DNA of 64,000 nucleotides from contig NZ_AP027370.1 of assembly GCF_030296055.1 (NCBI RefSeq), positions 944,501 to 1,008,500 on the forward strand, given 5' to 3'. Of this stretch, positions 3,285 through 62,565 are shown one piece after another (position 1 is the first letter of the stretch; the number at the start of each line of letters is the position of its first letter). Origin of the DNA: Hydrogenimonas cancrithermarum (GTDB lineage Bacteria; Campylobacterota; Campylobacteria; Campylobacterales; Hydrogenimonadaceae). Made by a program: the position numbers and the translations under genes. Under the pieces are notes generated by a model. It made no database searches. It worked only from the letters and a program-made list of their open reading frames with translations, and was not told the DNA's origin.

Positions 3285-3874
3285 GCCTGAAACGAACAAT
3301 TGAAAATGTCGGTATCGACCTCTCTGAAACGATCCACAAAAACCTCGACGCTTTTGCCAAACACCTGATGAAGTGGAACCGTATCCACAACCTGACGGGC
3401 GCGAAAACCCGTACGGCGATCGATACACAGATCCTCGACTCGATCTGGCCATTGACCTTTCTACCCGAACGCGACTCGCTGCTCGATATAGGCACGGGTG
3501 CCGGTTTTCCGGGGATGGTCCTGGCCATCGCTCTGCCCGAAACCGAGTGTACGCTCTGCGAACCGCTTCGAAAGCGAGCGGCGTTTTTACGCTTCATCGC
3601 CCGTGAGCTGGGGCTGAAAAACGTCACTGTCGAAGCCAAACGTGTCGAAGCACTCGAGGTACGCCCCTACACGCTCATCACTTCCCGTGCCGTGACCGAG
3701 ACACCCACCCTCATCGACTGGAGCCGCCCTTTTGTATCGGAAGGTACGCAGATGCTCTTTTACAAAGGAGAGCAGGTTTTCGAAGAGATCGAGGGGCTCG
3801 ACGCATGTGGCGTCGAACTCATCTCGCGCGACAAGCGCAACTATTTATGGATAAAGGAAGCCTCCAAATGCTGA
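3281..3874 (+). CDS. rsmG: 16S rRNA (guanine-527-N7) methyltransferase
   Basis: A 197-residue SAM-dependent methyltransferase (formerly GidB) that modifies G527 of 16S rRNA. The SAM loop [12 protein letters not shown] and the RsmG-typical KRAAFLRF and SRAVT segments are in the expected order. The frame is open far upstream through ribA, but homology-like sequence begins at [10 protein letters not shown], so a TTG overlapping the ribA stop codon (TTGA) is the likely start. The 3' end overlaps the ATG of the next gene (ATGCTGA), so ribA, rsmG and the following small genes form one tightly coupled operon. Confidence 0.9.
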
Positions 3875-4104
3875 AAATCGTACTTACCATCGCCGTCATC
3901 GCGGCAGTCTATTTCTTTCTGATCAAAAAGCCGAAAGTCACCCAAAAACGACAGGAGCGCGCCGAAGCCGAAAAACGTAAACCCGGCAAAGATGAGGAGA
4001 TCATGGTCGAGTGCGAAAAGTGTGGCACCTTCGTCAGTTCCCATGAAGCGATCATCGTCGGCGGCAAATACTACTGTTCCAAAAGCTGTGCTGGAGTGAA
4101 ATGA
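3868..4104 (+). CDS. PP0621-family small membrane-anchored zinc-ribbon protein
   Basis: A 78-residue protein with an N-terminal membrane segment ([18 protein letters not shown]), a charged Lys/Glu linker, and a C-terminal CEKCGTFVSSHEAI...YYCSKSC unit, which supplies CxxC plus CxxxC as a likely small zinc ribbon facing the cytoplasm. This layout matches the PP0621 family of uncharacterised bacterial proteins as I remember it. The start overlaps the rsmG stop, and the stop overlaps the next start (ATGATGA), so it is translated as part of the ribA-rsmG operon. An upstream in-frame ATG would lie deep inside rsmG and was rejected. Confidence 0.75.
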   Translation: MLKIVLTIAVIAAVYFFLIKKPKVTQKRQERAEAEKRKPGKDEEIMVECEKCGTFVSSHEAIIVGGKYYCSKSCAGVK

Positions 4105-4493
4105 TGATCATTATCGGCCACCCCGATATTCCGTTCGACCCGCTTCACTATGTCGAGCGTATCGAAGAGATTGCCAAAACCCCGCCGAACAGCACATTGT
4201 GGCTCGGACCTTTCAGCGGCGCCAAAGCGATCGCAAAACACTGCTTCGAAAATCGCATTGCCTACACGGTGATGGCCGAGTCGGTGAGAGATGCCCTGCT
4301 GGCAAACGCTTTGCATGCGCGCTTCATCCTCGCTGACAAGACGCTGGCGCCCAAACTCCAGAAAATCGCCGAAACCTACCTTTTCGATGCCAAAATTATC
4401 GTACCGGTTTCCGAAGAGAGCGAGATGGAAGCGATCGCCCAAATGGGAATCGACGGCGTCATTTTTCAAAATGCGATTATTTTCTCTGAATAA
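4101..4493 (+). CDS. Conserved hypothetical protein, possible NAD-independent Rossmann-like fold
   Basis: A 130-residue soluble protein without a signal peptide. It shows alternating beta-strand and helix blocks (MIIIGHPDIPFD, TLWLGPFSGAKAIAKHC, AYTVMAESVRDALLANAL, ARFILADKTLAPKLQKIAETY, AKIIVPVSEESEMEAIAQMGIDGVIF), suggesting a small alpha/beta fold. I do not recognise a catalytic motif. It is the last gene of the ribA operon, its ATG overlapping the previous stop. Genes of this type between rsmG and htpX may be specific to the phylum; no function is assigned. Confidence 0.7.
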   Translation: MMIIIGHPDIPFDPLHYVERIEEIAKTPPNSTLWLGPFSGAKAIAKHCFENRIAYTVMAESVRDALLANALHARFILADKTLAPKLQKIAETYLFDAKIIVPVSEESEMEAIAQMGIDGVIFQNAIIFSE

Positions 4494-8898: not shown

Positions 8899-11800
8899 AT
8901 GGGTCTTTCATTCAAAAACAAGATGAGCTCCCTGCTTCTTGCTGCATCGATCACCTTCGTCGGGTGCGGCGGTGGAGGCGGCGGGGGAGGCACTGAGCCG
9001 GCCGGAACCATTACGGCCAATGGCGTCACCGTGGTCTCGGGCACGACGGGTAGCCAAACCAGTGGAACCAGTGGCCGTTCGATCTTCAAGACACGCCAAA
9101 CTTCGGGTACGGAAAGCGCGGCGGTTGCCAGCGTTACCGTCGATACGAACGAAGATGGAATTTTCGATGAAAAAGACCCCACATTCACCTCTAGCGTGGA
9201 AAATGGCGCTTTTTCGGTGGAAATTCCCCTTCAAAATCTCGAAAAAACCTATAAAGGCCGCATCAGTGTCATCGCCGACGGCTACGCTCCATACAACAAA
9301 ATCATCGAAATAAAGGCAGGCCAAACGATCAACGTGCTGGCGGAAGCGGAAAAAATTCCCGTACTCAAAGAGACGGTGAATCTAAGCGATCTCAGTGAAT
9401 CGGCGAGAATGGGATCCTATATCCGTTTTGGTATTCGCACCACTGCCGACGGTGGAGTGAACTCCTTTTCGAAACTGGTTTCTCTTTCCGAACTCAAAGC
9501 CGAAGCGGATGCAAACGCATCGCTTGGAAAAGAGGATCTGGCGACCTATACGTTCCCACTCGCTTCCGTCCCAAAAGAGGTTAAAACACTCGACGTGACG
9601 ATGCAGGCTTTCGATTCGACGAAACCTGACGAACTGCAGTACTTCCCTGGTGAGTTCAAAGGCAAAGGGCTCTCCAACAAAGCGAATGCGGCAGACGACG
9701 AGGTCGGTCTCATATCCGCGGCTTTCGACATGTTCGTCATGAGAGACCAAAACGGCGACCCCGTCAAGCTCATCGAAACGGTGAACGACAAACTCTCTGC
9801 CAACGTGGACCTGAGCAATTGCAGTATGAAGTGGGTTCGCCGTATCACTCAGGCACAGGCACAGTTGATCGAAGGGTGGGGCGACTACGACCCATCCACT
9901 CCCGAATTCGAAGTACCAATCTGGAGCAACGACAATAGCGAAGGCACGTGGAAATTCGTAGGGGTCGGCAACGCCTACGATCTCAATGGCACCGACCCCT
10001 ATTTCGAAGTCTGTATACCCGACGAGTGGAATTCGGGCTATCTCAATTGCGACTCCCCCATCTCCTTCACCCAGCCGATAGAAGTCTGTGTCGAAACCTA
10101 CAACAACAATGGATTCCCTATCGAAGGCCTGCAAGTCTACGCCCAAAAGAGCAGCACCTACACCAGCAGCTATACGGACGCCAATGGCCATACCGTTCTC
10201 GAAATCCCCGATGCCGACATCACAGGCTGGAACTTCTACTACAAGGGTGCGATCACTGGATGGAGCGGTGTCGACGTTTCAGCTTCCCCCATCCCAGTAA
10301 CCGACAATCCGGAATGTGCCTACGAACTCAATGTAACAGGCATTGTCGATCCCTATTCCGCAGGCATCTACGTCACGGCCTACAAAATCGATGGGACACC
10401 GGCAGCCAATGAAAACGTCTACCTGAAAAGCACCGACTACTACGACTACTACCACAAAAGCAAAACGACCGATGACGAGGGCAAGGCTTTCTTCAAGGTC
10501 AAACCCAACGTTTCCTATACCGCTACGTATCGTGCCGGTTCCGCGAACGTGAAAGTGGATGGCAATCTCGTTCCCCCGGAAACTGCCGATACTGGCCGTT
10601 ACGCATCCGTGGACGTGAACGATACCAATATCGCACCGAGAGGACACATCTATTTCTATAAAAGCCGCCTCAAACCTTCGGCCGAGCATGTCAAATTCAA
10701 CCTTTCCGCCAGGGATGCCAACGGCGACACCATCACCATCAAACAGCTGAGCCTCAACGGAACCGTTTTGAAAAACGGCAGCGACTATACGATACTGGAT
10801 ATCTACTCCTACACCAACGGCTATCTCAGTACCATTATGGAACTCAACCTCACCCGGGTTTCACACATCGCGCCACAGGCACTGCAAGTGGGTACATACC
10901 GGCTCGAAGCGGTCGTGACCGACGGAACGGCGGAGACACCCATTTCAGGTGAATACAGTGTCGTAGCCAACGCCGCCCCGATCGTCAACGGCGCCACTGC
11001 CTACGATGAAAACGGGAGGATGTACAATATCGGCTACCGGCCACTGCCAAGCGAAGGTTTATACGACTTCTATATCTACGCTTTCGATCCCGACGGCGAC
11101 ACCATAACGATTAACGCCAATCTCGACGGTACCCCCCTCGTCTGCAACGGTTTCTACTGCACCGATGCCAACCTCACCGTAGGGGACAGAACGCTTACAG
11201 TGACGGCAACCGACAGCGATGGCGCCTCCGGTTCGCATACATTCCGTTTCCATGTGGGCAACCTGCCTCCTCGTATCGCTTCAGCCGGTGCGACAAGAGA
11301 TATCGTCGATATCAACAACCATGAAAGCTTCAGGCTCTTCGCCTATGCGAACGACCCTGAAGGAGAGAGCGACCTTCTTCTCAAAGCCATCGACCAGAAC
11401 GGCACGGAGCACAACCTGACGAAGAGTCGGGGAAGCCTCTACCAGAGCGAAGCCATCGAACCTACCGACCCCGGCATCTACATCTACACGATCACGGCGC
11501 AAGACTCGAAAGGGGCGCTCTCCGGCGCCGCGACCGTCACGGTGGAGGTGATCGCGAGCAACAGGCCTCCGATCTTCACCAAACAGCCTCACGGAGGCCA
11601 AATTACCGTAGGAACGACTCAGACGTTCGAATGTGAAGCGATCGATCCCGAAGGTACGCCGGTAAGCTACAGCTGGAAACTCGACGATGCCGTTTTGCCG
11701 GCGACGGGAACCACCCTTTCACACCTTTTCGACGAAACGGGCAACTTTACCGTCACCTGTATCGCGACCGACCTGGACGGTGAAAGCAGCAGCGCTTCGG

Positions 11801-13494
11801 CGAAGGTCTATGTCATCGATCCGAACCAGAGCGGTACACTGACGGTCAGAACCTCCTTCCCTGGCGTTCTCGTCGGCATCCACGATGCCAGCGACCACTA
11901 TCGACTCATCGGCTCCAAACGCACCGATTCCAACGGTGTGGCATCCTTCTCGGTCACGGGAGACAGGACCACCTTCTCCGTCACCGTCGAACCATCGATG
12001 ATCCTCGATACCGACACCGTCTACGAGCTCCTCGTACCCATGCTCGTCAACGACGCCTCCTACAACTGCCGATATGGCGATATCAACATGAGCGAATGCG
12101 ACAGCGCAGACTGGTGCGCCATCATGACGGCGGATTTTCTCCCGGCGTGGATCATCGATGCGGCACTGATCAAGGGTGGCAACGTCACATCGAGTGATGT
12201 CGACGCCAACGGCGACGGCATCGTGACCAGAGACGAATTCCATGCAGCCGCCATCGCCACTCTCGACAAAAACGGAGATGGAGCGCTCAGCCTGAAAGAG
12301 ATATACGACGATGAAAACATCATTCTTTCACGGATGTACGCCAACGCCCCCGTCAGAACCTACGACATTCCTTTCGGCCCCTGGGGGTACTACACCGAAG
12401 GCGAAGAACCCTATTTCTATGAATGTTACGCGAACGAAGACATCGACTTCAACATCACCGTCACGAACGTTCCATCCCCGAACGCATACATCGATATGAC
12501 CGGATCGTGCTACACCATGGGTTACGAAATCAACGGCTCCTCGTCCACGGCACACATCAAGGCTCGTGCCTACTATACCGACGAAAATGGAACGTACGAT
12601 TTCGGTATCAAGTTCTCTTTCGCGGACCACAACGTTTCGATCTACCTCGCAACCGACAAGACGGCGGCAGATCTGGCGAACGGCGTGACGCTGGACTATG
12701 CGAATTTCGTTCCGTTCGACCGGCTCAAAGATGTCAACATCACCGAGCGTACTACCGAGTGGCTTTGGGTCACTCCGACTTATAAAAACGTGACCCTTGC
12801 GACGTACGAACAGTTGCGTGTCGATTATTTGGAGAAAGCCACCATCAGACATTACAAATATCTCGACGACGCCCGCCTGAACTACCCGATAAAGGGGCAG
12901 CAATCCATCAACAACCAAACGAAAGGCCATAACGACTACTATGGCGACGGCACGCTCCAAAGCGCTTACGATGGCCGCAACTACGCCTACCTGGACCTGA
13001 ACATCACGTCTGAAAAAGGTAGCCAAACGGTCCGTTTCGTTGGAAACGACTGGCCCAAGATCGACATGACGACGCTGGACTATCGGACCGATCTTTATAC
13101 CAGGGAACAAGACAATGAATTCTCTTTCACGTTGATCGACTTCGCCCCCTCTGCCACGATCGATTTCGGCGACGTCAACCTCTCGGAGATCTACCCCCAG
13201 ACGGTCGCCGACGAAATTCTCTCCTTCGAAGAGAATGAATCGGCATCGCATTCCATGTCGGCCAATGCCGAGGAGTTCAAAAACATGACCTCCTATGAGT
13301 TCATCGATATCTTCTTCGACAGCGGATACGGGAAATACTCCTTTTACTTAAACGTTCCCGGCCGATACGTCACCGCTGATGGCCTCTACCAACCGATGGC
13401 AGCGTACTCTTCGCTTGGCAAAAAGAAAAAGCCCCATCGAAAAGCCAACCCGTTCACGATTCCTTTCGATCCTCGGCTTCTTCTGAGAAAATAA
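8899..13494 (+). CDS. Giant lipoprotein with Ig/PKD-like domains and EF-hand pair
   Basis: A 1531-residue cell-envelope protein. The N-terminus has a lipoprotein signal with the lipid-accepting cysteine at residue 23 (TFVGC) and a poly-Gly run after it. A calcium-type loop DTNEDGIFDEKD lies at 82-93. The middle has several carboxypeptidase-regulatory-like and Ig-like beta modules with DANGD/DPDGDT loops, and a PKD-like domain is at about 890-975. A dockerin- or EF-hand-like pair is at about 1100-1135 (DVDANGDGIVTRDEF and DKNGDGALSLKEI). No catalytic motif is seen; surface adhesion or scaffolding is likely. AAGGAG precedes the ATG. It is followed by the subtilase gene. Confidence 0.8.
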   Translation: MGLSFKNKMSSLLLAASITFVGCGGGGGGGGTEPAGTITANGVTVVSGTTGSQTSGTSGRSIFKTRQTSGTESAAVASVTVDTNEDGIFDEKDPTFTSSVENGAFSVEIPLQNLEKTYKGRISVIADGYAPYNKIIEIKAGQTINVLAEAEKIPVLKETVNLSDLSESARMGSYIRFGIRTTADGGVNSFSKLVSLSELKAEADANASLGKEDLATYTFPLASVPKEVKTLDVTMQAFDSTKPDELQYFPGEFKGKGLSNKANAADDEVGLISAAFDMFVMRDQNGDPVKLIETVNDKLSANVDLSNCSMKWVRRITQAQAQLIEGWGDYDPSTPEFEVPIWSNDNSEGTWKFVGVGNAYDLNGTDPYFEVCIPDEWNSGYLNCDSPISFTQPIEVCVETYNNNGFPIEGLQVYAQKSSTYTSSYTDANGHTVLEIPDADITGWNFYYKGAITGWSGVDVSASPIPVTDNPECAYELNVTGIVDPYSAGIYVTAYKIDGTPAANENVYLKSTDYYDYYHKSKTTDDEGKAFFKVKPNVSYTATYRAGSANVKVDGNLVPPETADTGRYASVDVNDTNIAPRGHIYFYKSRLKPSAEHVKFNLSARDANGDTITIKQLSLNGTVLKNGSDYTILDIYSYTNGYLSTIMELNLTRVSHIAPQALQVGTYRLEAVVTDGTAETPISGEYSVVANAAPIVNGATAYDENGRMYNIGYRPLPSEGLYDFYIYAFDPDGDTITINANLDGTPLVCNGFYCTDANLTVGDRTLTVTATDSDGASGSHTFRFHVGNLPPRIASAGATRDIVDINNHESFRLFAYANDPEGESDLLLKAIDQNGTEHNLTKSRGSLYQSEAIEPTDPGIYIYTITAQDSKGALSGAATVTVEVIASNRPPIFTKQPHGGQITVGTTQTFECEAIDPEGTPVSYSWKLDDAVLPATGTTLSHLFDETGNFTVTCIATDLDGESSSASAKVYVIDPNQSGTLTVRTSFPGVLVGIHDASDHYRLIGSKRTDSNGVASFSVTGDRTTFSVTVEPSMILDTDTVYELLVPMLVNDASYNCRYGDINMSECDSADWCAIMTADFLPAWIIDAALIKGGNVTSSDVDANGDGIVTRDEFHAAAIATLDKNGDGALSLKEIYDDENIILSRMYANAPVRTYDIPFGPWGYYTEGEEPYFYECYANEDIDFNITVTNVPSPNAYIDMTGSCYTMGYEINGSSSTAHIKARAYYTDENGTYDFGIKFSFADHNVSIYLATDKTAADLANGVTLDYANFVPFDRLKDVNITERTTEWLWVTPTYKNVTLATYEQLRVDYLEKATIRHYKYLDDARLNYPIKGQQSINNQTKGHNDYYGDGTLQSAYDGRNYAYLDLNITSEKGSQTVRFVGNDWPKIDMTTLDYRTDLYTREQDNEFSFTLIDFAPSATIDFGDVNLSEIYPQTVADEILSFEENESASHSMSANAEEFKNMTSYEFIDIFFDSGYGKYSFYLNVPGRYVTADGLYQPMAAYSSLGKKKKPHRKANPFTIPFDPRLLLRK

Positions 13495-53554: not shown

Positions 53555-54673
53555 CGCCCATTCAACCAGAGACTGCAACACCACCGATCAAGCCACAGAA
53601 TAAGCGACTGCCATTTTAGCGAAGAAAACTTCAGCCGGCGTTTTGTAGCCCAACACTTTCCTGGGTCGGTGGTTCAACCGGTTTTGCACCGCCACCACCT
53701 CTTTGTCCGTAATCTCTTCGAAAGCCTTGTGCTTGGGAAAGTATTCTCGTATCAATCCATTGGTATGTTCGTTGAGTCCTCTGTCACAGGAGTGGTAGGG
53801 ACGGGCGAAGAAGAAGCCGCTCTTTAGCCTTTCGCTGATGAGAGCGTGGTAAGCGAACTCCTTGCCGTTGTCGCTGGTGATGGTTCGGGTGATGGCTTTG
53901 ACGGGTTCGAGCAGGTGGAGAATGGCCCGGGTCACGTCATCGGCTCTTTTGCTGGTGACCTTTTTCATCAGCGTGAATTTCGAATGCCTGTCCACCAGGG
54001 TTACAATCCCCTGATGGTGTCCTCTGCCGATGATCGTGTCGGCCTCCCAGTCACCCACTCGGCGCTTGGTCTCGACGATGGCGGGACGCGCTTCGATGCC
54101 GATTCGCCCTTTGATGCTCCCTCGTTTGGCGTAGTTGTCCGAACGCCTGGTGTACTTTTTGCGTTTGTGGCGCAAAAAGAGATAGAGCGTACCACCCTGC
54201 TTCTGGTCACGGTAGACATAACGGTAGATCGTTTCGTGACTCACAGGATCGAGTCCATCCAGCCGCATACGTCCGCTGATCTGTTCGGGACTCCACCCCT
54301 CTTGCAGATGTTGACGGATGTAGCGTATGTGACTATGGCTCATGCGACGGTTCTTCTTCTTGTACTGATACCGCAACCGTGCCTCGATGGCGGCCTTTTC
54401 CGCAATGTACTCACCACCTGGACTGCTGTTGCGTTTCAGCTCCCGGCACACCGTCGAACGGTGCACGCCGATGTGTCTGGCGATGGCGCTTTGGCTCAAC
54501 CCCTCTTTTTTCAAAGCTTCGATCTGATATCGTTCTTTCAAGGTCAGCTGCGTATAGCTCATAAGTGTCCTTATCTTGCCGGATAATCTCACTTACTTAT
54601 TCTATCGCAGCTGACCTCTTCTGATTATCCGCCTCTGATTTTCTTGCTGTTGCACTTTAAAGTTGAATGGGCG
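53555..54673 (-). mobile_element. IS30-family insertion sequence, apparently complete
   Basis: The element is 1119 bp. Its ends are imperfect 25-bp inverted repeats (53555-53579 and 54649-54673): both read CGCCCATTCAAC, seven variable bases, TGCAAC, with 20 of 25 matching. AAA flanks both ends and may be a 3-bp target duplication. One intact transposase gene fills it. The insertion replaced the 3' end of a small ORF (see 54602). Confidence 0.88.
53588..54562 (-). CDS. IS30-family transposase
   Basis: A 324-residue DDE transposase. The N-terminal helix-turn-helix (YQIEALKKEGLSQSAIARHIGVHRSTVCRELKRNS) is typical of IS30, as is HIRYIRQHLQEGWSPEQISGRM. The catalytic acidic residues are in VGDWEADTIIG, TITSDNGKEFA and LNEHTNGLIREYFPK (DDE order). 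No frameshift is present, so it may be active. The upstream extension of ten codons is ignored because the start MSYTQLTLKERYQIE is typical. Confidence 0.93.
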   Translation of the reverse strand: MSYTQLTLKERYQIEALKKEGLSQSAIARHIGVHRSTVCRELKRNSSPGGEYIAEKAAIEARLRYQYKKKNRRMSHSHIRYIRQHLQEGWSPEQISGRMRLDGLDPVSHETIYRYVYRDQKQGGTLYLFLRHKRKKYTRRSDNYAKRGSIKGRIGIEARPAIVETKRRVGDWEADTIIGRGHHQGIVTLVDRHSKFTLMKKVTSKRADDVTRAILHLLEPVKAITRTITSDNGKEFAYHALISERLKSGFFFARPYHSCDRGLNEHTNGLIREYFPKHKAFEEITDKEVVAVQNRLNHRPRKVLGYKTPAEVFFAKMAVAYSVA

Positions 54674-55336: not shown

Positions 55337-57667
55337 ATGACGAAAGCAAAAATGTTCCGCGGAATCGGACGATTCGCCGTGACCGCGGCTATGATTGTGG
55401 CTGCCAATCCTCTGGCAGCCTCCTACTGGTCGGAAGGGTTGAAAAGTGGCAATGCTTCGTTAAAAGGTGATGGAAGGAGGATAGCCACCGCATCCGATGG
55501 TGGATACTGGCTATTGCGCCATTACAATCCTGGAATCGGTCTTTTCCGGCTCGATGAAGACGGCCGGATAGTATGGGCGAGATCCCATGGTGCCGGGGAA
55601 GCGTTCGCCGGTACTCCCACCCCCGACGGCGGATACGTGATTGCCGCCAACACGAAGGAGACGGATGATGACAAAGCATCGGACATCTGGATCGTGAAAT
55701 TCGACGGAAGCGGGAACGTCGTGTGGCAGACTTACGCCAGCGCACAGGACAATCTGCATGCTATGGCTTACGACATCACACCCGTGAAAGGGGGCGGATA
55801 TCTCGTTGCAGGATATGAACAGACGGAAAAAGGTGGATATGGCGATGCGCTTTTGCTGCGGATATCCGAAGATGGAAAGCTGCTTTGGAGAGGTCTATAC
55901 GGCACAAAATACGACACTGCATCCTACTCGAACGATCCCTACGACGACAAATGTCATGGAGTGACCGAGACGTCGGATGGCGGATTCGTCGCTGTGGGCG
56001 ATACCAGTAGCGCAGGGCCGAAATATAGACAGTTGATCTTCAAAGTGGATGAAAACGGTTCACTGCTTTGGAGCAAACAGGTTTCTCCGACCGCCCACTA
56101 CGGAACGAAAAGCTCCGATACATACACGTATGCGGAAAGGGTGGTTTCCGGAAACGACGGAAGCGTGGTCGTGACCGGATACGACGGTGGATATTACGAA
56201 GACAGCAACGGAACTCGTAGAAGTTACGCATATCTGCGAACGATCAAACTCGACGAAAATGGAACGACTCTGTGGTCCGACGCGATTTCGGCGGATAAGC
56301 TGACTGTGCTGACGGCAAGAGGCTACGATATCGCACGCCTGCCTTCGGGAGGCTACCTGGTAGCTGGATGGACATCAGGATTCAACGATAACAACGCCAA
56401 CGACGGCTGGCTTGTCGCCCTGGATGAAGAGGGTGAAATCCTCTGGCAGAAGGCCTACGGCTCCGCAACTACTCATCAGGAGTTCTATTCGGTCGCAACG
56501 CTGCCCGACGGCATACTGACAGGAGGATCCGACAGAGGGGATCTATGGCTTTTGAAACTCGATGAAGAGGGAATGATTCCGGAGTGTTCGGCCGACAGAG
56601 ATGTACAGGCCCTTCGCAGAAGTGGAACAGTATCGCGAGATGTGAATTTGACATGGAAGGTCATACCCGGCACACTTGGGGATGCGAATCTTACTTTCGA
56701 CGAATCGGCAGTCACCGACAGAAAAAAATGTCCTCCCCTTATCGACTCTTTCCGAGCCGTTCCCGCAACCGGTGGTGTGCCGTTGACGGTCACCTTCGAA
56801 TGTTCAGCACGCTCTCACGATCCTCATGGCTCCATCCGTTACTACCGCTGGGATTTCGATGATGACGGACGAATCGATCGCATAACCCAAGAGGAGAGGG
56901 TGGACCATACCTACACAGCCACCGGTGAATACAACGCGACGGTGGAAGTGGTCGACACCAACAACCTGACCACTCTCTCCGCCCCACTCACCATCCGAAT
57001 CACGCAACCCCCGGTTATCGACGCATTCGAGGCCGACACACGAGAAGGAAAAGCACCGCTGAAAGTCTCGTTCGAGTGTCGGGCCCACGATCCCGACGGC
57101 ACTGTCGGCGCTTACGAGTGGGACTTCGACGGCGATGGAACCGTGGATAACGTAACAACCGGCGGTACCATCTCTTTTATCTATGACAAGGCGGGCGAGT
57201 ACAACGCAACCGTCACCGTAAAAGACGACCTGGGCGTCCGTTCCGTCCCCTCCACCCTCACCTTGCGGGTGGCACCACCCAACCGGGCACCAGAAATCAC
57301 GGTGCTGACCGCCGAGCCAACGAGAGGAAAAGCCCCTTTGAGCGTCGAATTCGAATGTGTCGCCAACGACAAGGACGGGAAAATCGTTTCCTATGGATGG
57401 GATTTCGATGGTGACGGAATCGTGGACGAAACCAGTGGATCGGGGCGTATCTCCCATACGTTCGAAACAGCCGGTCATTATGCCGTGACCGTGACGGTTC
57501 GGGACGACGATGGGGCCGAAACGAAATCCGAAACGGTAACGATCCGTGTCGATACGGCCGGAAAGAGACATCACCGCATTCCTTTGGCGAATGGTGGAGT
57601 GTTGATGCTCTGGGCACTCCTCTTGATAGGATTGGTACGGCTTGCTGAGAGGAGAAGAGTCTCGTGA
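55337..57667 (+). CDS. Exported repeat/PKD protein with C-terminal sorting signal
   Basis: A 776-residue protein. After a signal peptide (FAVTAAMIVAANPLAAS) come about six similar repeats of the form DGGYxVAG...DExGxxLWxKxYG (residues about 45-430), a beta-propeller-like pattern. Three PKD domains follow (about 463-735; each has YxWDFDGDGxVD and HTYxxxGxYxxTVxV). The C-terminus reads RIPLANGGVLMLWALLLIGLVRLAERRRVS: a short motif, a hydrophobic helix and an arginine cluster, the layout of exosortase substrates. The stop overlaps the GTG start of the exosortase gene. AGGAGG precedes the ATG. Confidence 0.85.
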   Translation: MTKAKMFRGIGRFAVTAAMIVAANPLAASYWSEGLKSGNASLKGDGRRIATASDGGYWLLRHYNPGIGLFRLDEDGRIVWARSHGAGEAFAGTPTPDGGYVIAANTKETDDDKASDIWIVKFDGSGNVVWQTYASAQDNLHAMAYDITPVKGGGYLVAGYEQTEKGGYGDALLLRISEDGKLLWRGLYGTKYDTASYSNDPYDDKCHGVTETSDGGFVAVGDTSSAGPKYRQLIFKVDENGSLLWSKQVSPTAHYGTKSSDTYTYAERVVSGNDGSVVVTGYDGGYYEDSNGTRRSYAYLRTIKLDENGTTLWSDAISADKLTVLTARGYDIARLPSGGYLVAGWTSGFNDNNANDGWLVALDEEGEILWQKAYGSATTHQEFYSVATLPDGILTGGSDRGDLWLLKLDEEGMIPECSADRDVQALRRSGTVSRDVNLTWKVIPGTLGDANLTFDESAVTDRKKCPPLIDSFRAVPATGGVPLTVTFECSARSHDPHGSIRYYRWDFDDDGRIDRITQEERVDHTYTATGEYNATVEVVDTNNLTTLSAPLTIRITQPPVIDAFEADTREGKAPLKVSFECRAHDPDGTVGAYEWDFDGDGTVDNVTTGGTISFIYDKAGEYNATVTVKDDLGVRSVPSTLTLRVAPPNRAPEITVLTAEPTRGKAPLSVEFECVANDKDGKIVSYGWDFDGDGIVDETSGSGRISHTFETAGHYAVTVTVRDDDGAETKSETVTIRVDTAGKRHHRIPLANGGVLMLWALLLIGLVRLAERRRVS

Positions 57668-58185
57668 CGAAAGTCAAAACTCCCATCTTCGGAAAAAGTG
57701 CGCTCCATTTCGCCGCACTTTCCATGGGGATGCTGGTGCTGGTACACGGGACCGTATTACGCGAAGCGATCGATGCAACCTACTCCCCCTTTCTGGCACG
57801 CACCGCCTCCCATTTGCTTGGCTTGCTGGGAATCGAAGGGAAGGTGTCACACGCCACCATCATCCTTGCGAATGGTTCGATGGAATTGGCGTGGCTTTGC
57901 AATGGTGTGGATGTGACCTTGATACTGGCATGTGCGATCGCAGCGACCGCCAGGGTCACCCCCCTTCGCAAAGTGCTCTGGATCGCAGCGGGGGTACTGG
58001 TGGCAGCGATGATAAACCTATTGCGTATCGTCATCCTGGGATGGGTTCTGAAAAACTTTCCGAGCGGCTTTGAAGCGATTCATGACATCCTGACGATCCC
58101 TTCGCTCTTGTCGCTTGCACTGTTTTACTCTCTCTTTCTTTTTTCGAGCGGAGGTGCGGTACCGCCGATAAACAGGTGGGCATGA
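57664..58185 (+). CDS. Compact exosortase/archaeosortase-family transpeptidase
   Basis: A 173-residue integral membrane protein with about five to six helices. The conserved catalytic residues are visible: Cys in ELAWLCNGVDVTLIL, Arg in INLLRIVILGW and His in FEAIHDILTI. This triad (C-N-G-V, N-x-x-R, H) marks exosortases, which cleave the C-terminal tail of exported proteins. It is of the short type similar to XrtH. The GTG start overlaps the stop of the PKD gene, and AGGAGAAGAG precedes it, so enzyme and presumed substrate are translated together. Confidence 0.85.
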   Translation: MTKVKTPIFGKSALHFAALSMGMLVLVHGTVLREAIDATYSPFLARTASHLLGLLGIEGKVSHATIILANGSMELAWLCNGVDVTLILACAIAATARVTPLRKVLWIAAGVLVAAMINLLRIVILGWVLKNFPSGFEAIHDILTIPSLLSLALFYSLFLFSSGGAVPPINRWA

Positions 58186-58354: not shown

Positions 58355-61300
58355 ATGGCAGACGGAAATTATCAGATCTTTTCACTCAAAGACGATGTCG
58401 ATACAACCAAAGAATGGGAGGGGATCGAATGGCTGCGCGCGAATGCCGGGTACGAGATAGGACTCGGGTTGTCGGCCGACGCGGAACTGTGCCACGGGAT
58501 AGAATTGGCCCTGGGTGCGGATCTCGATGCCGAAGCGCAGGCGGCTCTTTCCATTTTTCTACGCCTTGCCGCCAATTTACAGCTCGAAGCCGCTGCCGGC
58601 ATCAAGCTGCAGGCCCAACTCAAGCCAGACCTTTTTGAAGAGTTCGGCCTTCTGGCCAACGTCGGAGCCTATGCGAAAGCACAAGCCGCCGCAGGATTGG
58701 ACATTGGGCTGGAGAGCGATCAGTTGATGCAGCTCTTCGAAGTGGAAGCGGCATCGAGAATGGACCCAGCCGAAGCCATTCTGGCACGAAAGATATTCCA
58801 CCGTTTTCTCCAGCAGCTGGAAGCCAAAGCCGGTGTCTGGGGCAAAGCCTCTTTCTCCGCCATGGCACAAGGGTACTGCAACATCTACGGCACGTTCGCA
58901 GACCCGGACGCTTCCGGTTTTTTCATCGAAGCCGGCGGCGATGTCGGCCTTGAAGTGGGGTTCGGCGCCGACTTTTTCGCTGCGGGACGCATCAAATCCC
59001 CGGCACGCTTTCTCAGAAACGTCGGAATGGATATCGTTCCCTATCTTCAAATGAAGCTCGATTCGGAATATCCCGAATATGCCTCGAACGTGAAAATCGC
59101 CGCCTACGCTTTTCTCGCACTGGGAGGGTTGGGTTTCGTCGCCTGGCAGATCCATTCGGCCTGGATCGGTGCCCCGGACGAGAAAGCGACGAAAAAGGCG
59201 CTGGAAGCCCTTTTCGACAGTTACCGCATCATGATCCTTCATGCGATCAAAGAGAACATCACGACCATCAACAAAACGGTTATCGACGCCATCGTCGAAG
59301 CGCTGTTATCGTCCGACAGGTATTCCACCGAACAAAAAAGTACGATCAAAGCGTCGCTGCTCGAGATCGCGGAACGGATCGAGGGTGAAAAATTCAACGA
59401 TTTTGCCGAGATCAACGCCATCGTTACGGAAGCGGCCGACATCATGGACCAACTTTTACCCGAAGCACGACGGAACTTGAGAGAACCGTTGACGATTCTA
59501 TGGTGCAGTGTGGCGATCCTTCACGCTTTGAGCGATAAGAAACCCGACAAAAAATTGAAAGAGCAAAGCCTGGATTTGCCCGATGCTCCGGTCATGGTCA
59601 TCGGAGAACTTGTCAGCGCGATGGAGATCGAAGAACCCCTTTCCACCATACCTGTCTCCCTGGCCATCGATTATCTGGCCACCCGGACGATTCACGAAAC
59701 CCTCCCGAACGATCTTCCCGAGGAGTGGCAGCCTCTGATGGAGATCCTAACAAGCACCCTGCATCTAAGCCCCGGCACGCTCGTCTCCGCGCTACTGTAC
59801 GCGCGCATCGGAGGAAACCTGACCGACACCCAGCTCTATGGCCGCCTGCGCGACGCACTCAAAGCTTTTTTGGAAAGAACGGAACACGAACTTCTGACCC
59901 AAACCCGCCTTTTGGAGTCCGAAGACCCTTTTGTCAAAGAGTACATGAGGTATACCGTGCTTCCCTCCCTACACCTGGCAAACAGTTTTTTGCTAAATCA
60001 GATCGACCTGCTGGTCATGCATTCGGGCGATTTCGACGAGGAGCGTTTTCGACAGGCATTGAGCGTGCTTTTCTACCGTATCGTCGCCAAATCGACCCTC
60101 ACCTTCGCATTCATGCTGCAAGAGCATGTGGACAACGAGATCGTCAAAGCCCTCGACACACTCATAGAGCGGCTGAAAGAGGAAAAAGAGACGCCACTGC
60201 TGCACCTCGCCTCGGAGATGTCAGAAAAACTAAGTGCAGGGCTCGTGCAGGAAGAGCAGGCCGAGAAAGCGACGAAACGGTTGCTGATCGACCTTTTTAC
60301 CCTGGCCAAAAGGCTCCAGGGCGAAGAGGTTTGGTCTCAGGCAAGAAAATCCCAGAGGCGTCAGCTCCTCGAAACCGCACTGGTCGGCAAAGAGATGCTT
60401 CCGAAGTTTTTCGAATCCCAGTCCATCGAAGCCTACCTGGAGTGGGTCATGGAGTGCAACATGGTGCCGAACCAGCAAACCCTTCAGGCACTCAACATTC
60501 TCTATGGCGAAGTTCTGGTCGATCAGATCACCCTGTTGTTAAACCGCCTGCCCTCGATCCTCTCGACTTTTTTCCTCACTCTTTCGACGGACGCTTACGA
60601 AGAGGCCAGAGAGCGGCTCGAAGAGACGGCAGAAGAGCTGGAAAGCCTCGTAGGGCAACTTCGGATCATCGTCGAAAATCTGGAGCGACAGGTCGAAGAG
60701 CTCGAAAATGTGTTAAGGGCCAGCCTGGAAGATCTGAGTCGACAATTGAATGATCTGAAAAACTACCTCGAATCCGACGAACTTCTGGAAAACGCCCTCA
60801 ACGCCATACATGTCATGGCTCTCAAAATATGCGAAAACGACCTTTGCCGGAGTGCTTTCGAAATGGCATGGCCCGCGACAGAATTCTTTTTGTCCCCTGT
60901 CATCGAAGAAGGATTGATCCTGACGGAACCTCTCGTCAAAGCGGCCGCCGAAGAGGCTTCGTCACTCATCGACACCCTTTTGGATGCGGAAACCACCCTT
61001 TCGGACATCGAAACGAGCCTGGCGGCCAAGATCGAAAAGACTTTCCAGGACTTATGCGGCGGCGCCACGTTGCAATATCCTTTGACACCGGAGAACATCG
61101 GCAAGACCCTTTCCGCACTCATCGTTGCAGGAGTGCCCGCCTTCGAATCAGCCATACAAAACGAAGAAGAGCTTCGAAGCAAACGAACGACCCATGAAGA
61201 GAACCGAAACCGTTTGGAAACCACTCACAAATTGCGAGAGGATGCTTATCGCACCATAGAGGCCACGATACTTTCACCAGTGAACACCGTAGATCGCAGG

Positions 61301-61993
61301 CATCTTTACATGCATGGCGCCGAAGTTCCCCTCTCCATCTTTATCGAACATGGAACGTTGGAGATGGTGAGCCCTAACGGCTGGGATCGGATCTTGATCC
61401 ATATCAATGGAAAAAAGTTGAAAACCCGAAAAAGCGACTGGCAAGAACACGAAAACGGCATTCTCTTCAGCAAAACGCTCCGCTACCCCCAAAGTGGCCT
61501 CAGGCCGGGACTCAATGTCATCGAATGCTCCGTCACCAATACCATCCCTTCGGCTTTGAGAAGAGGGCCGAGACACATGCCCCACTCCGGAAAAAGGACT
61601 GGCGACAACAGGCGTTCAACCACTTTCTTTTTGGACCCCTTGGCCACCCTGCCGAACGCCTTGCAGGTCGACCGGACCCTTTCACAGTTCGAAGTCCCCG
61701 GCAAGAACGATCATCTCTACACCAAAGAGGAGTACGTCACTTTCGTCAACCGTGGCGACAAACCCCTGAACATCGGTGGATGGACCTTGTCGGATGCCAA
61801 AGAGCATATTTTCGTCTTTCCGGAAGGTACGGTGGTCGAACCGGGGGCGACGGTGAGAGTCGTCACGGGAAAAGGCACCGACACCGCCACAGAGTTTTAC
61901 ATAGGCCGGCGTGCGGCCATCTGGAACAATCGTGGCGATACGGTTTTGCTCGTGAACAGGGAAGGGGTGTTGCACTCCAGTTTCATCTACTGA
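58355..61993 (+). CDS. 1212-residue helical protein with C-terminal lamin-tail domain
   Basis: A large protein without signal peptide. Residues about 15-150 are Ala/Leu/Glu-rich amphipathic helices with repeated GLxLxADAEL-type segments. A hydrophobic stretch AYAFLALGGLGFVAWQIHSAW near 260 may be a membrane anchor. The middle is almost all helix, with a coiled coil near 750-810 (ESLVGQLRIIVENLERQVEELENVL). The last about 110 residues match a lamin-tail (LTD) beta-sandwich: EEYVTFVNRGDKPLNIGGWTLSDAKEHIFVFPEG...NNRGDTVLLVNREG. AAGGGAAGGA precedes the ATG; the frame is open 18 codons upstream. Function unknown; its position suggests the same accessory island as the exosortase. Confidence 0.7.
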   Translation: MADGNYQIFSLKDDVDTTKEWEGIEWLRANAGYEIGLGLSADAELCHGIELALGADLDAEAQAALSIFLRLAANLQLEAAAGIKLQAQLKPDLFEEFGLLANVGAYAKAQAAAGLDIGLESDQLMQLFEVEAASRMDPAEAILARKIFHRFLQQLEAKAGVWGKASFSAMAQGYCNIYGTFADPDASGFFIEAGGDVGLEVGFGADFFAAGRIKSPARFLRNVGMDIVPYLQMKLDSEYPEYASNVKIAAYAFLALGGLGFVAWQIHSAWIGAPDEKATKKALEALFDSYRIMILHAIKENITTINKTVIDAIVEALLSSDRYSTEQKSTIKASLLEIAERIEGEKFNDFAEINAIVTEAADIMDQLLPEARRNLREPLTILWCSVAILHALSDKKPDKKLKEQSLDLPDAPVMVIGELVSAMEIEEPLSTIPVSLAIDYLATRTIHETLPNDLPEEWQPLMEILTSTLHLSPGTLVSALLYARIGGNLTDTQLYGRLRDALKAFLERTEHELLTQTRLLESEDPFVKEYMRYTVLPSLHLANSFLLNQIDLLVMHSGDFDEERFRQALSVLFYRIVAKSTLTFAFMLQEHVDNEIVKALDTLIERLKEEKETPLLHLASEMSEKLSAGLVQEEQAEKATKRLLIDLFTLAKRLQGEEVWSQARKSQRRQLLETALVGKEMLPKFFESQSIEAYLEWVMECNMVPNQQTLQALNILYGEVLVDQITLLLNRLPSILSTFFLTLSTDAYEEARERLEETAEELESLVGQLRIIVENLERQVEELENVLRASLEDLSRQLNDLKNYLESDELLENALNAIHVMALKICENDLCRSAFEMAWPATEFFLSPVIEEGLILTEPLVKAAAEEASSLIDTLLDAETTLSDIETSLAAKIEKTFQDLCGGATLQYPLTPENIGKTLSALIVAGVPAFESAIQNEEELRSKRTTHEENRNRLETTHKLREDAYRTIEATILSPVNTVDRRHLYMHGAEVPLSIFIEHGTLEMVSPNGWDRILIHINGKKLKTRKSDWQEHENGILFSKTLRYPQSGLRPGLNVIECSVTNTIPSALRRGPRHMPHSGKRTGDNRRSTTFFLDPLATLPNALQVDRTLSQFEVPGKNDHLYTKEEYVTFVNRGDKPLNIGGWTLSDAKEHIFVFPEGTVVEPGATVRVVTGKGTDTATEFYIGRRAAIWNNRGDTVLLVNREGVLHSSFIY

Positions 61994-62108: not shown

Positions 62109-62309
62109 TTAGAAGCTGTAGACGATGCCTGCCGTTGTCGTCGTATCGGTTTTTTTCTTTCCGACAGGCGGGACGTTGTCGTATTTGAGCTCGAACCCGA
62201 GGCGGAACGACAGCTTATCGACGATCAGCATCTTCAATCCGAGATCGATGACGGTTTCGACATCCTTGACCCGTTTCAAATTGTCGAGAACATCCCATGT
62301 GGCCGTAAA
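62109..62309 (-). pseudogene. 3' remnant of a DUF481-type outer-membrane protein
   Basis: The last 66 codons of a beta-barrel-like protein: TWDVLDNLKRVKDVETVIDLGLKMLIVDKLSFRLGFELKYDNVPPVGKKKTDTTTTAGIVYSF. The NVPPxGxxKTDTTT-x-GIVYSF end is the DUF481/YdiY signature, including terminal aromatic Phe. There is no upstream half: the frame continues directly into an IS orfA fragment, making one chimeric open frame. Confidence 0.75.
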
Positions 62310-62565
62310 CTGATTCTCTTTGGGGCGGGCACGCAACTGGTTCTCCATACCGCGACACGCTTCCTCCATCCACTCCTCGATCTGCGCCGGTGTCAAATCG
62401 TACTTACGCGACACTTCCGCCACTGTCGTTTTACCCTGGAATATATCCATCACGAGTTCCGCCTTCTTCTTGGCGGTCATCCGTTTAATTTCTGGTTGTG
62501 ACTCTCCCATTTTCTCTCTCCTGTCTCATGTATTATACATTGTGCAGGTGGTCTGGGGGGGGTCA
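62310..62565 (-). mobile_element. IS3-type element remnant (left end plus 5' part of orfA)
   Basis: The end reads TGACCCCCCCCAGACCACC on the minus strand, as in IS3-family termini. An orfA start follows (MGESQPEIKRMTAKKKAELV, IFQGKTTVAEVSRKYDLTPAQIEEWM), a helix-turn-helix of the IS3 orfA kind. It stops at residue 67, where the DUF481 remnant begins. The rest of the element is gone. It broke cas1 at its 5' side. Confidence 0.7.

Follow-up and report, generated by a model that had tools for sequence, protein, structure and literature searches.

Most exosortases act on many targets, which makes them difficult to assay; the dedicated type of system, in which one sorting enzyme serves one target, is represented, for instance, by XrtE/VPEID-CTERM. 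The EpsH (XrtA)/PEP-CTERM system is of the many-target type and is associated with EPS loci; the published EpsH motifs are C-x-G, N-x-x-R and H, a cysteine transpeptidase chemistry has been proposed for the enzyme, and the glycine of an HxxxG motif was invariant in the EpsH set of 2006 (PMC1569441). Compact exosortases of about 160 aa are found in the XrtH/IPTL-CTERM system (TIGR04177, TIGR04174, NF041730), whose tails have a P-L near their start. C-terminal tails are also cut by rhombosortase (GlyGly-CTERM) and myxosortase (MYXO-CTERM), two enzymes that are unrelated to exosortases, the former being a rhomboid and the latter a member of another intramembrane protease family. MYXO-CTERM proteins are known to leave by type II secretion (PMC11980579), which is also a correlate of GlyGly-CTERM, and the genes of rhombosortase and of its target adjoin when only one target exists (PMC3237569).

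Here we analyzed a window of 64,000 nucleotides from the genome of Hydrogenimonas cancrithermarum, in which the gene of a PKD protein is followed by that of a 173-aa protein. The best explanation of this pair, to which we give a probability of about 0.78, is a dedicated single-target exosortase system. It shares with XrtE/VPEID-CTERM the apparent pairing of one enzyme with one target, but both the tail motif and the phylum are different, and neither XrtE nor VPEID models were among the model matches of the window enzyme and tail. With EpsH/PEP-CTERM it has in common the Cys, Arg and His motifs and a tail composed of a motif, a helix and a basic cluster; however, the enzyme has 173 aa rather than the 8-TM length of EpsH, there appears to be one target and there are no obvious adjacent EPS genes, HxxxT is found in place of HxxxG, and the tail has no PEP motif. 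With the rhombosortase and myxosortase systems the likeness lies in the cutting of a C-terminal tail and in the link to type II secretion.

The first gene of the pair (55337..57667, + strand) encodes a 776-aa secreted β-propeller protein with three PKD domains and a C-terminal sorting tail, an assignment that was based on the ORF, its Shine-Dalgarno sequence, the Pfam PKD matches and propeller homologues. The Shine-Dalgarno sequence is strong (AGGAGG ahead of the ATG at 55337). The second gene (57664..58185, + strand) encodes the 173-aa exosortase. Both ORFs have exactly the coordinates given in the original prediction, and the overlap that it had described between the stop of one gene and the GTG of the other was confirmed: the TGA of the PKD gene (57665-57667) lies on the GTG of the exosortase gene (57664-57666), so that the two share the four nucleotides GTGA. 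The sequence across this junction is ...GTCTCGTGACG..., and the Arg-cluster codons, AGGAGAAGA, double as a Shine-Dalgarno-like sequence (junction, 57649..57667, + strand), i.e., an AGGAG located 9 nt before the GTG within the codons AGG AGA AGA. From the overlap and the position of this AGGAG, translational coupling of the two genes is likely. An origin of the pair as recent foreign DNA was considered and rejected, as its composition gives no sign of it: the GC content is 0.55 (0.53 in the window) and third-position GC is 0.59-0.63 (0.65 ± 0.07 in the window), although there is an IS30 element a short way upstream.

The lamin-tail gene that follows (58355-61993) had been proposed as a possible further component, a proposal for which we found no support. 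The product has 1212 aa, with the lamin-tail domain (67 bits) at its C-terminus; the gene is preceded by a spacer of its own (about 170 bp) and, within the genus, was detected in the host genome only. Neither a signal peptide nor a sorting tail was seen in the sequence. Hence, this gene is probably not part of the exosortase system. Other features of the window were recorded. Upstream of the pair, at a distance of about 0.7 kb, an IS30 transposase gene (53588-54592, 283 bits) separates it from a murD-like gene. A 133-aa ORF (62109-62510, - strand) looks like a fusion or a remnant, its first half matching a transposase helix-turn-helix and its second half the last 70 residues of DUF481. Finally, a 1531-aa PKD-containing protein (8899-13494) has a lipobox-like Cys with a run of Gly behind it (CGGGGGGGG), and similar Cys-poly-Gly starts were seen in two other loci (L021 and L037).

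The 173-aa protein had been taken for an exosortase from its Cys, Arg and His residues, and this identity is upheld by both curated family models, whose cut-offs are passed (PF09721, 40.4 bits over 25.7; TIGR04178, 41.4 over 23). No subtype cut-off was reached with the models of XrtH (23.9 against 86), EpsH (34.7 against 105.55), XrtX (33.9 against 170), archaeosortase B (36 against 150) and XrtA (22.1 against 208). In an alignment of the window enzyme and 11 further exosortases from Campylobacterota, C79, N80, G81, N118, R121 and H140 were among the invariant columns, so that the motifs LCNGV, NLLRI and AIHD of the window enzyme fall in the invariant CNG, NxxR and H columns and the catalytic candidates Cys79, Arg121 and His140 occupy the catalytic positions of the family, as predicted. 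The groups C79-N-G81, N118-L-L-R121 and H140 agree with the EpsH motifs. The HxxxG motif is altered, since the enzyme has HDILT, with Thr144 replacing the Gly after His140. Thr is also found there in the f18 enzymes, XrtH-like proteins encoded beside an XrtH-associated protein, and for this reason we would not take the glycine as defining for compact exosortases. The protein has four hydrophobic segments, and both its hydropathy and the helical AF2 model are those expected of a multi-spanning membrane protein. This model, obtained from four sequences, has a pLDDT of 80.2 (the single-sequence model was poor, 55.6) and contains a small β-meander just ahead of the Cys, followed by three helical segments. 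No match was found between solved structures and the sequence profile of the exosortase, nor in a fold search of the PDB and viral folds with the AF2 model at E ≤ 0.001.

The PKD protein starts with a Sec signal-peptide-like N-terminus, MTKAKMFRGIGRFAVTAAMIVAANPLAAS (55337..55426, + strand; hydropathy 1.61 at residues 13-29). Its N-terminal part is a propeller of W-containing repeats of the type DGWLVALDEEGEILWQKAYG, and a Pfam search recognized the three PKD domains (PF18911, 141 bits). Besides the signal-peptide-like helix, the hydropathy profile has one C-terminal helix (residues 754-770, hydropathy 2.28), which is preceded by HHRIPLANGG and followed by ERRRVS (tail, 57566..57664, + strand; complete sequence, HHRIPLANGGVLMLWALLLIGLVRLAERRRVS). 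Sequence and hydropathy thus bear out the tripartite tail originally described (RIPLANGG, hydrophobic helix and Arg cluster), and a hydropathy scan of the 64-kb window found no other ORF with such a tail. With the NCBIfam models of C-terminal signals, the tail gave no match at E ≤ 10, within the filters of HMMER. Furthermore, it was not recovered by leave-one-out profiles built from the other Campylobacterota tails, and a single motif common to the whole phylum was discarded as unsupported; judged from their sequences, what the tails have in common is the architecture and the P-L pair, without a shared motif.

Could the C-terminal helix be a plain membrane anchor, with the downstream enzyme acting elsewhere or being inactive? 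A tail motif unlike any known signal and the loss of the HxxxG glycine would fit with this, but the two genes overlap, all three catalytic candidates are kept in an open frame, and the tail architecture is concentrated beside exosortases. When 462 ORFs were scanned by hydropathy for a hydrophobic segment at the N-terminus, a single helix at the C-terminus and a basic end, 9 were positive, and 8 of these 9 have an exosortase gene within 2.5 kb (Fisher p = 1.4e-4, a value that is indicative, given that the criteria were home-made, the thresholds were set by the author and the eight include L031, which is probably no substrate). The ninth belongs to G034, an exosortase genome, and has the tail type of that genome. 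Tails also follow exosortases across genomes, which again argues against a plain anchor. Propeller homologues of the PKD protein are present in 45 of 397 Campylobacterota genomes, the host genome included, and those inspected from exosortase-free genomes carry no exosortase-type tail; nor was such a tail seen at the end of the homologues from genomes of the Sulfurovum type, whose exosortases are of a different kind. In G034, two of these homologues bear the tail type of their own genome. Within the same genus (g18), exosortase and tails are found in G034 and G075, and G051 has neither tail, nor exosortase, nor GspG. On this evidence the plain anchor is quite improbable, and the window enzyme most likely cuts the tail off the adjacent PKD protein.

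A profile search of the host genome detected two exosortases, and the window enzyme as the sole exosortase of the genome was therefore rejected. The second enzyme is encoded about 740 kb from the window pair, and its gene overlaps that of a subtilase-kelch protein with a tail of its own, GGAPLIDTLFLLLSLAGFVSIGWVWGKFEERKPS. Scanning the genome with a tail profile returned these two tails, each located next to the corresponding exosortase, without further hits at E < 0.2 (the rows of the profile were both host-genome tails, that of the window included, and four others, so that tails with other motifs may be missed). A PEP-CTERM search of the host genome gave no hit over the cut-off. As the profile finds no third tail, each exosortase appears to have one target. 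Hence, the pairing and the very small number of tails stand as originally proposed, and the uniqueness that the proposal implied does not, since the genome has two such pairs. Both have overlapping enzyme and target genes and a tail with P-L, a helix and a basic end; in the second one, however, the enzyme gene comes first, the enzyme is 20% identical to that of the window, the target is a protease, a type II secretion cluster is near, and other species have the pair. It is conserved in a congener (L037 in G004) and has a counterpart with the same type of target in another family (L066 in G084); the coordinates are L021:7014-10147 for the host genome (G000), L037:5141-8283 and L066:6636-10279, and the tail reads APL[IVF]D. 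The coexistence of two exosortases with two tails in the genome, both tails with a PL motif before the helix, might also mean that the enzymes are redundant, each one processing both tails, and that the pair arose from enzyme duplication and is not a dedicated system. This is unlikely, because the enzymes are only 20% identical and are placed in different parts of the tree, each gene overlaps that of its own target, and the second pair is found where the first is missing, in G004 and, with a target of the same type, in G084. A dedicated enzyme for each tail is the reading that we keep.

The original prediction knew of no such pair in Campylobacterota, but exosortases are not rare there (20 of 397 genomes, plus G004) and the phylum has other small enzyme-target sets. 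A search of about 85,000 species genomes, with the sensitivity that was applied, and of plasmids gave no close relatives of the window pair; at this level of sequence comparison the pair is a singleton. The nearest relatives found for the enzyme are the f18 enzymes, with about 28-30% identity. A collection scan with these enzymes gave four loci, all from Campylobacterota (records named Campylobacterales and Sulfurovum); the 12-exosortase alignment was too divergent to serve as query. In the exosortase tree the window enzyme joins the f18 enzymes with a support of 99/98, a join of which we are unsure given that the window enzyme is a long branch. The f18 loci encode an XrtH-associated membrane protein (37.0 against a cut-off of 35), and of their tails one is over the cut-off of the IPTL-CTERM model (21.5 > 20.5) and one is just under it (19.2). 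The f18 systems therefore look like diverged XrtH/IPTL-CTERM systems, as far as sequence models can tell, although the enzymes score only 59-65 on the XrtH model (cut-off 86).

These affinities raise the possibility that the window enzyme is itself a diverged, stripped-down XrtH/IPTL-CTERM member, that the PKD protein is an IPTL-CTERM target which has likewise diverged, and that the pair does not represent a separate type. The identity to the f18 enzymes and the tree point in this direction, as do the Thr shared at the HxxxG position, the XrtH-associated protein and IPTL-like tails of the f18 loci, and the homologous propellers of G034, one of the f18 genomes, that bear the tail type of their genome. 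The score of the window enzyme on the XrtH model is nevertheless far below the cut-off, no model recognizes its tail, which the f18 tail profile also fails to pick up (rank 23, E = 8), no homologue of the XrtH-associated protein is encoded in the window, the apparently single target adjoins its enzyme, the long branch makes the join unsure, and the f18 enzymes themselves fall short of the XrtH cut-off. We consider membership in XrtH/IPTL-CTERM possible, yet the less probable choice. Thus, the separation from XrtH that was originally drawn holds by enzyme score and by tail model, and is less clear-cut when the XrtH-like nearest relatives and the propeller tails of G034 are taken into account. 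The window pair is best read as a dedicated single-target pair that is related to, and diverged from, an XrtH-like/IPTL-CTERM system.

We then considered where the product of a dedicated system might go. Among 24 exosortase loci inspected, 14 are in or near Gsp genes (eleven Sulfurovum-type loci, those of G084 and G004, and the second locus of the host, within about 8 kb of a Gsp cluster); those inside or near such clusters span three families (L025, L026, L027, L030, L032, L033, L069-L072, L109, L066, L037 and L021). GspG was detected in 20 of the 21 exosortase genomes examined and in 28 of 38 other genomes, the latter being chosen by the author and not a random sample. The host genome has a Gsp cluster, but the window pair lies outside it. 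GspG occurs twice in three genomes (G210, G229 and G365), where the exosortase sits in the cluster of the lower-scoring one. At several Sulfurovum-type loci, a gene for an OmpA-like outer-membrane β-barrel is found beside the exosortase gene (L026:11287-11910, PF13505, 60 bits; homologues in L025, L027, L028 and L029). In L028 two copies of it (3768-4412 and 8995-9639) flank a long ORF near the exosortase, and their equal scores to the query suggest a duplicated segment.

In the mechanism that we propose, the PKD/β-propeller protein would be exported by Sec, as its N-terminus suggests, and its C-terminal helix would hold it in the inner membrane, the Arg cluster lying on the inner side and RIPLANGG facing the periplasm. 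The exosortase would probably be produced from the same message via translational coupling, and by analogy with its family Cys79, together with Arg121 and His140, would cut at or near IPLANGG, so that the helix is removed. The freed protein, possibly with a new C-terminal group, would then be exported or displayed, whether released or re-anchored. Because of the association between Gsp genes and exosortases, and the precedent of MYXO-CTERM and GlyGly-CTERM, it would most likely leave, by analogy, through the type II secretion system of the host. For the phylum as a whole, we tentatively suggest, at somewhat less than even odds, that a type II secretion-linked exosortase pathway replaces the EPS-linked one in Campylobacterota: the exosortase of the Gsp cluster would cut membrane-anchored propeller, protease and adhesin-like proteins for the type II machine, and the window pair would be a translationally coupled offshoot that has an enzyme, a tail motif and a single target of its own.

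The window pair may thus be regarded as a version of a known sorting system in which one enzyme serves one target, and no curated subtype model covers it. This two-gene unit, in which the Arg codons of the target carry the ribosome site of the enzyme, lends itself well to tests of cleavage, of the attached group and of specificity. In addition, unclassified exosortases occur in about 5% of the Campylobacterota genomes sampled, many of them within type II secretion clusters, and the survey of the phylum suggests a testable export route for C-terminally sorted proteins.
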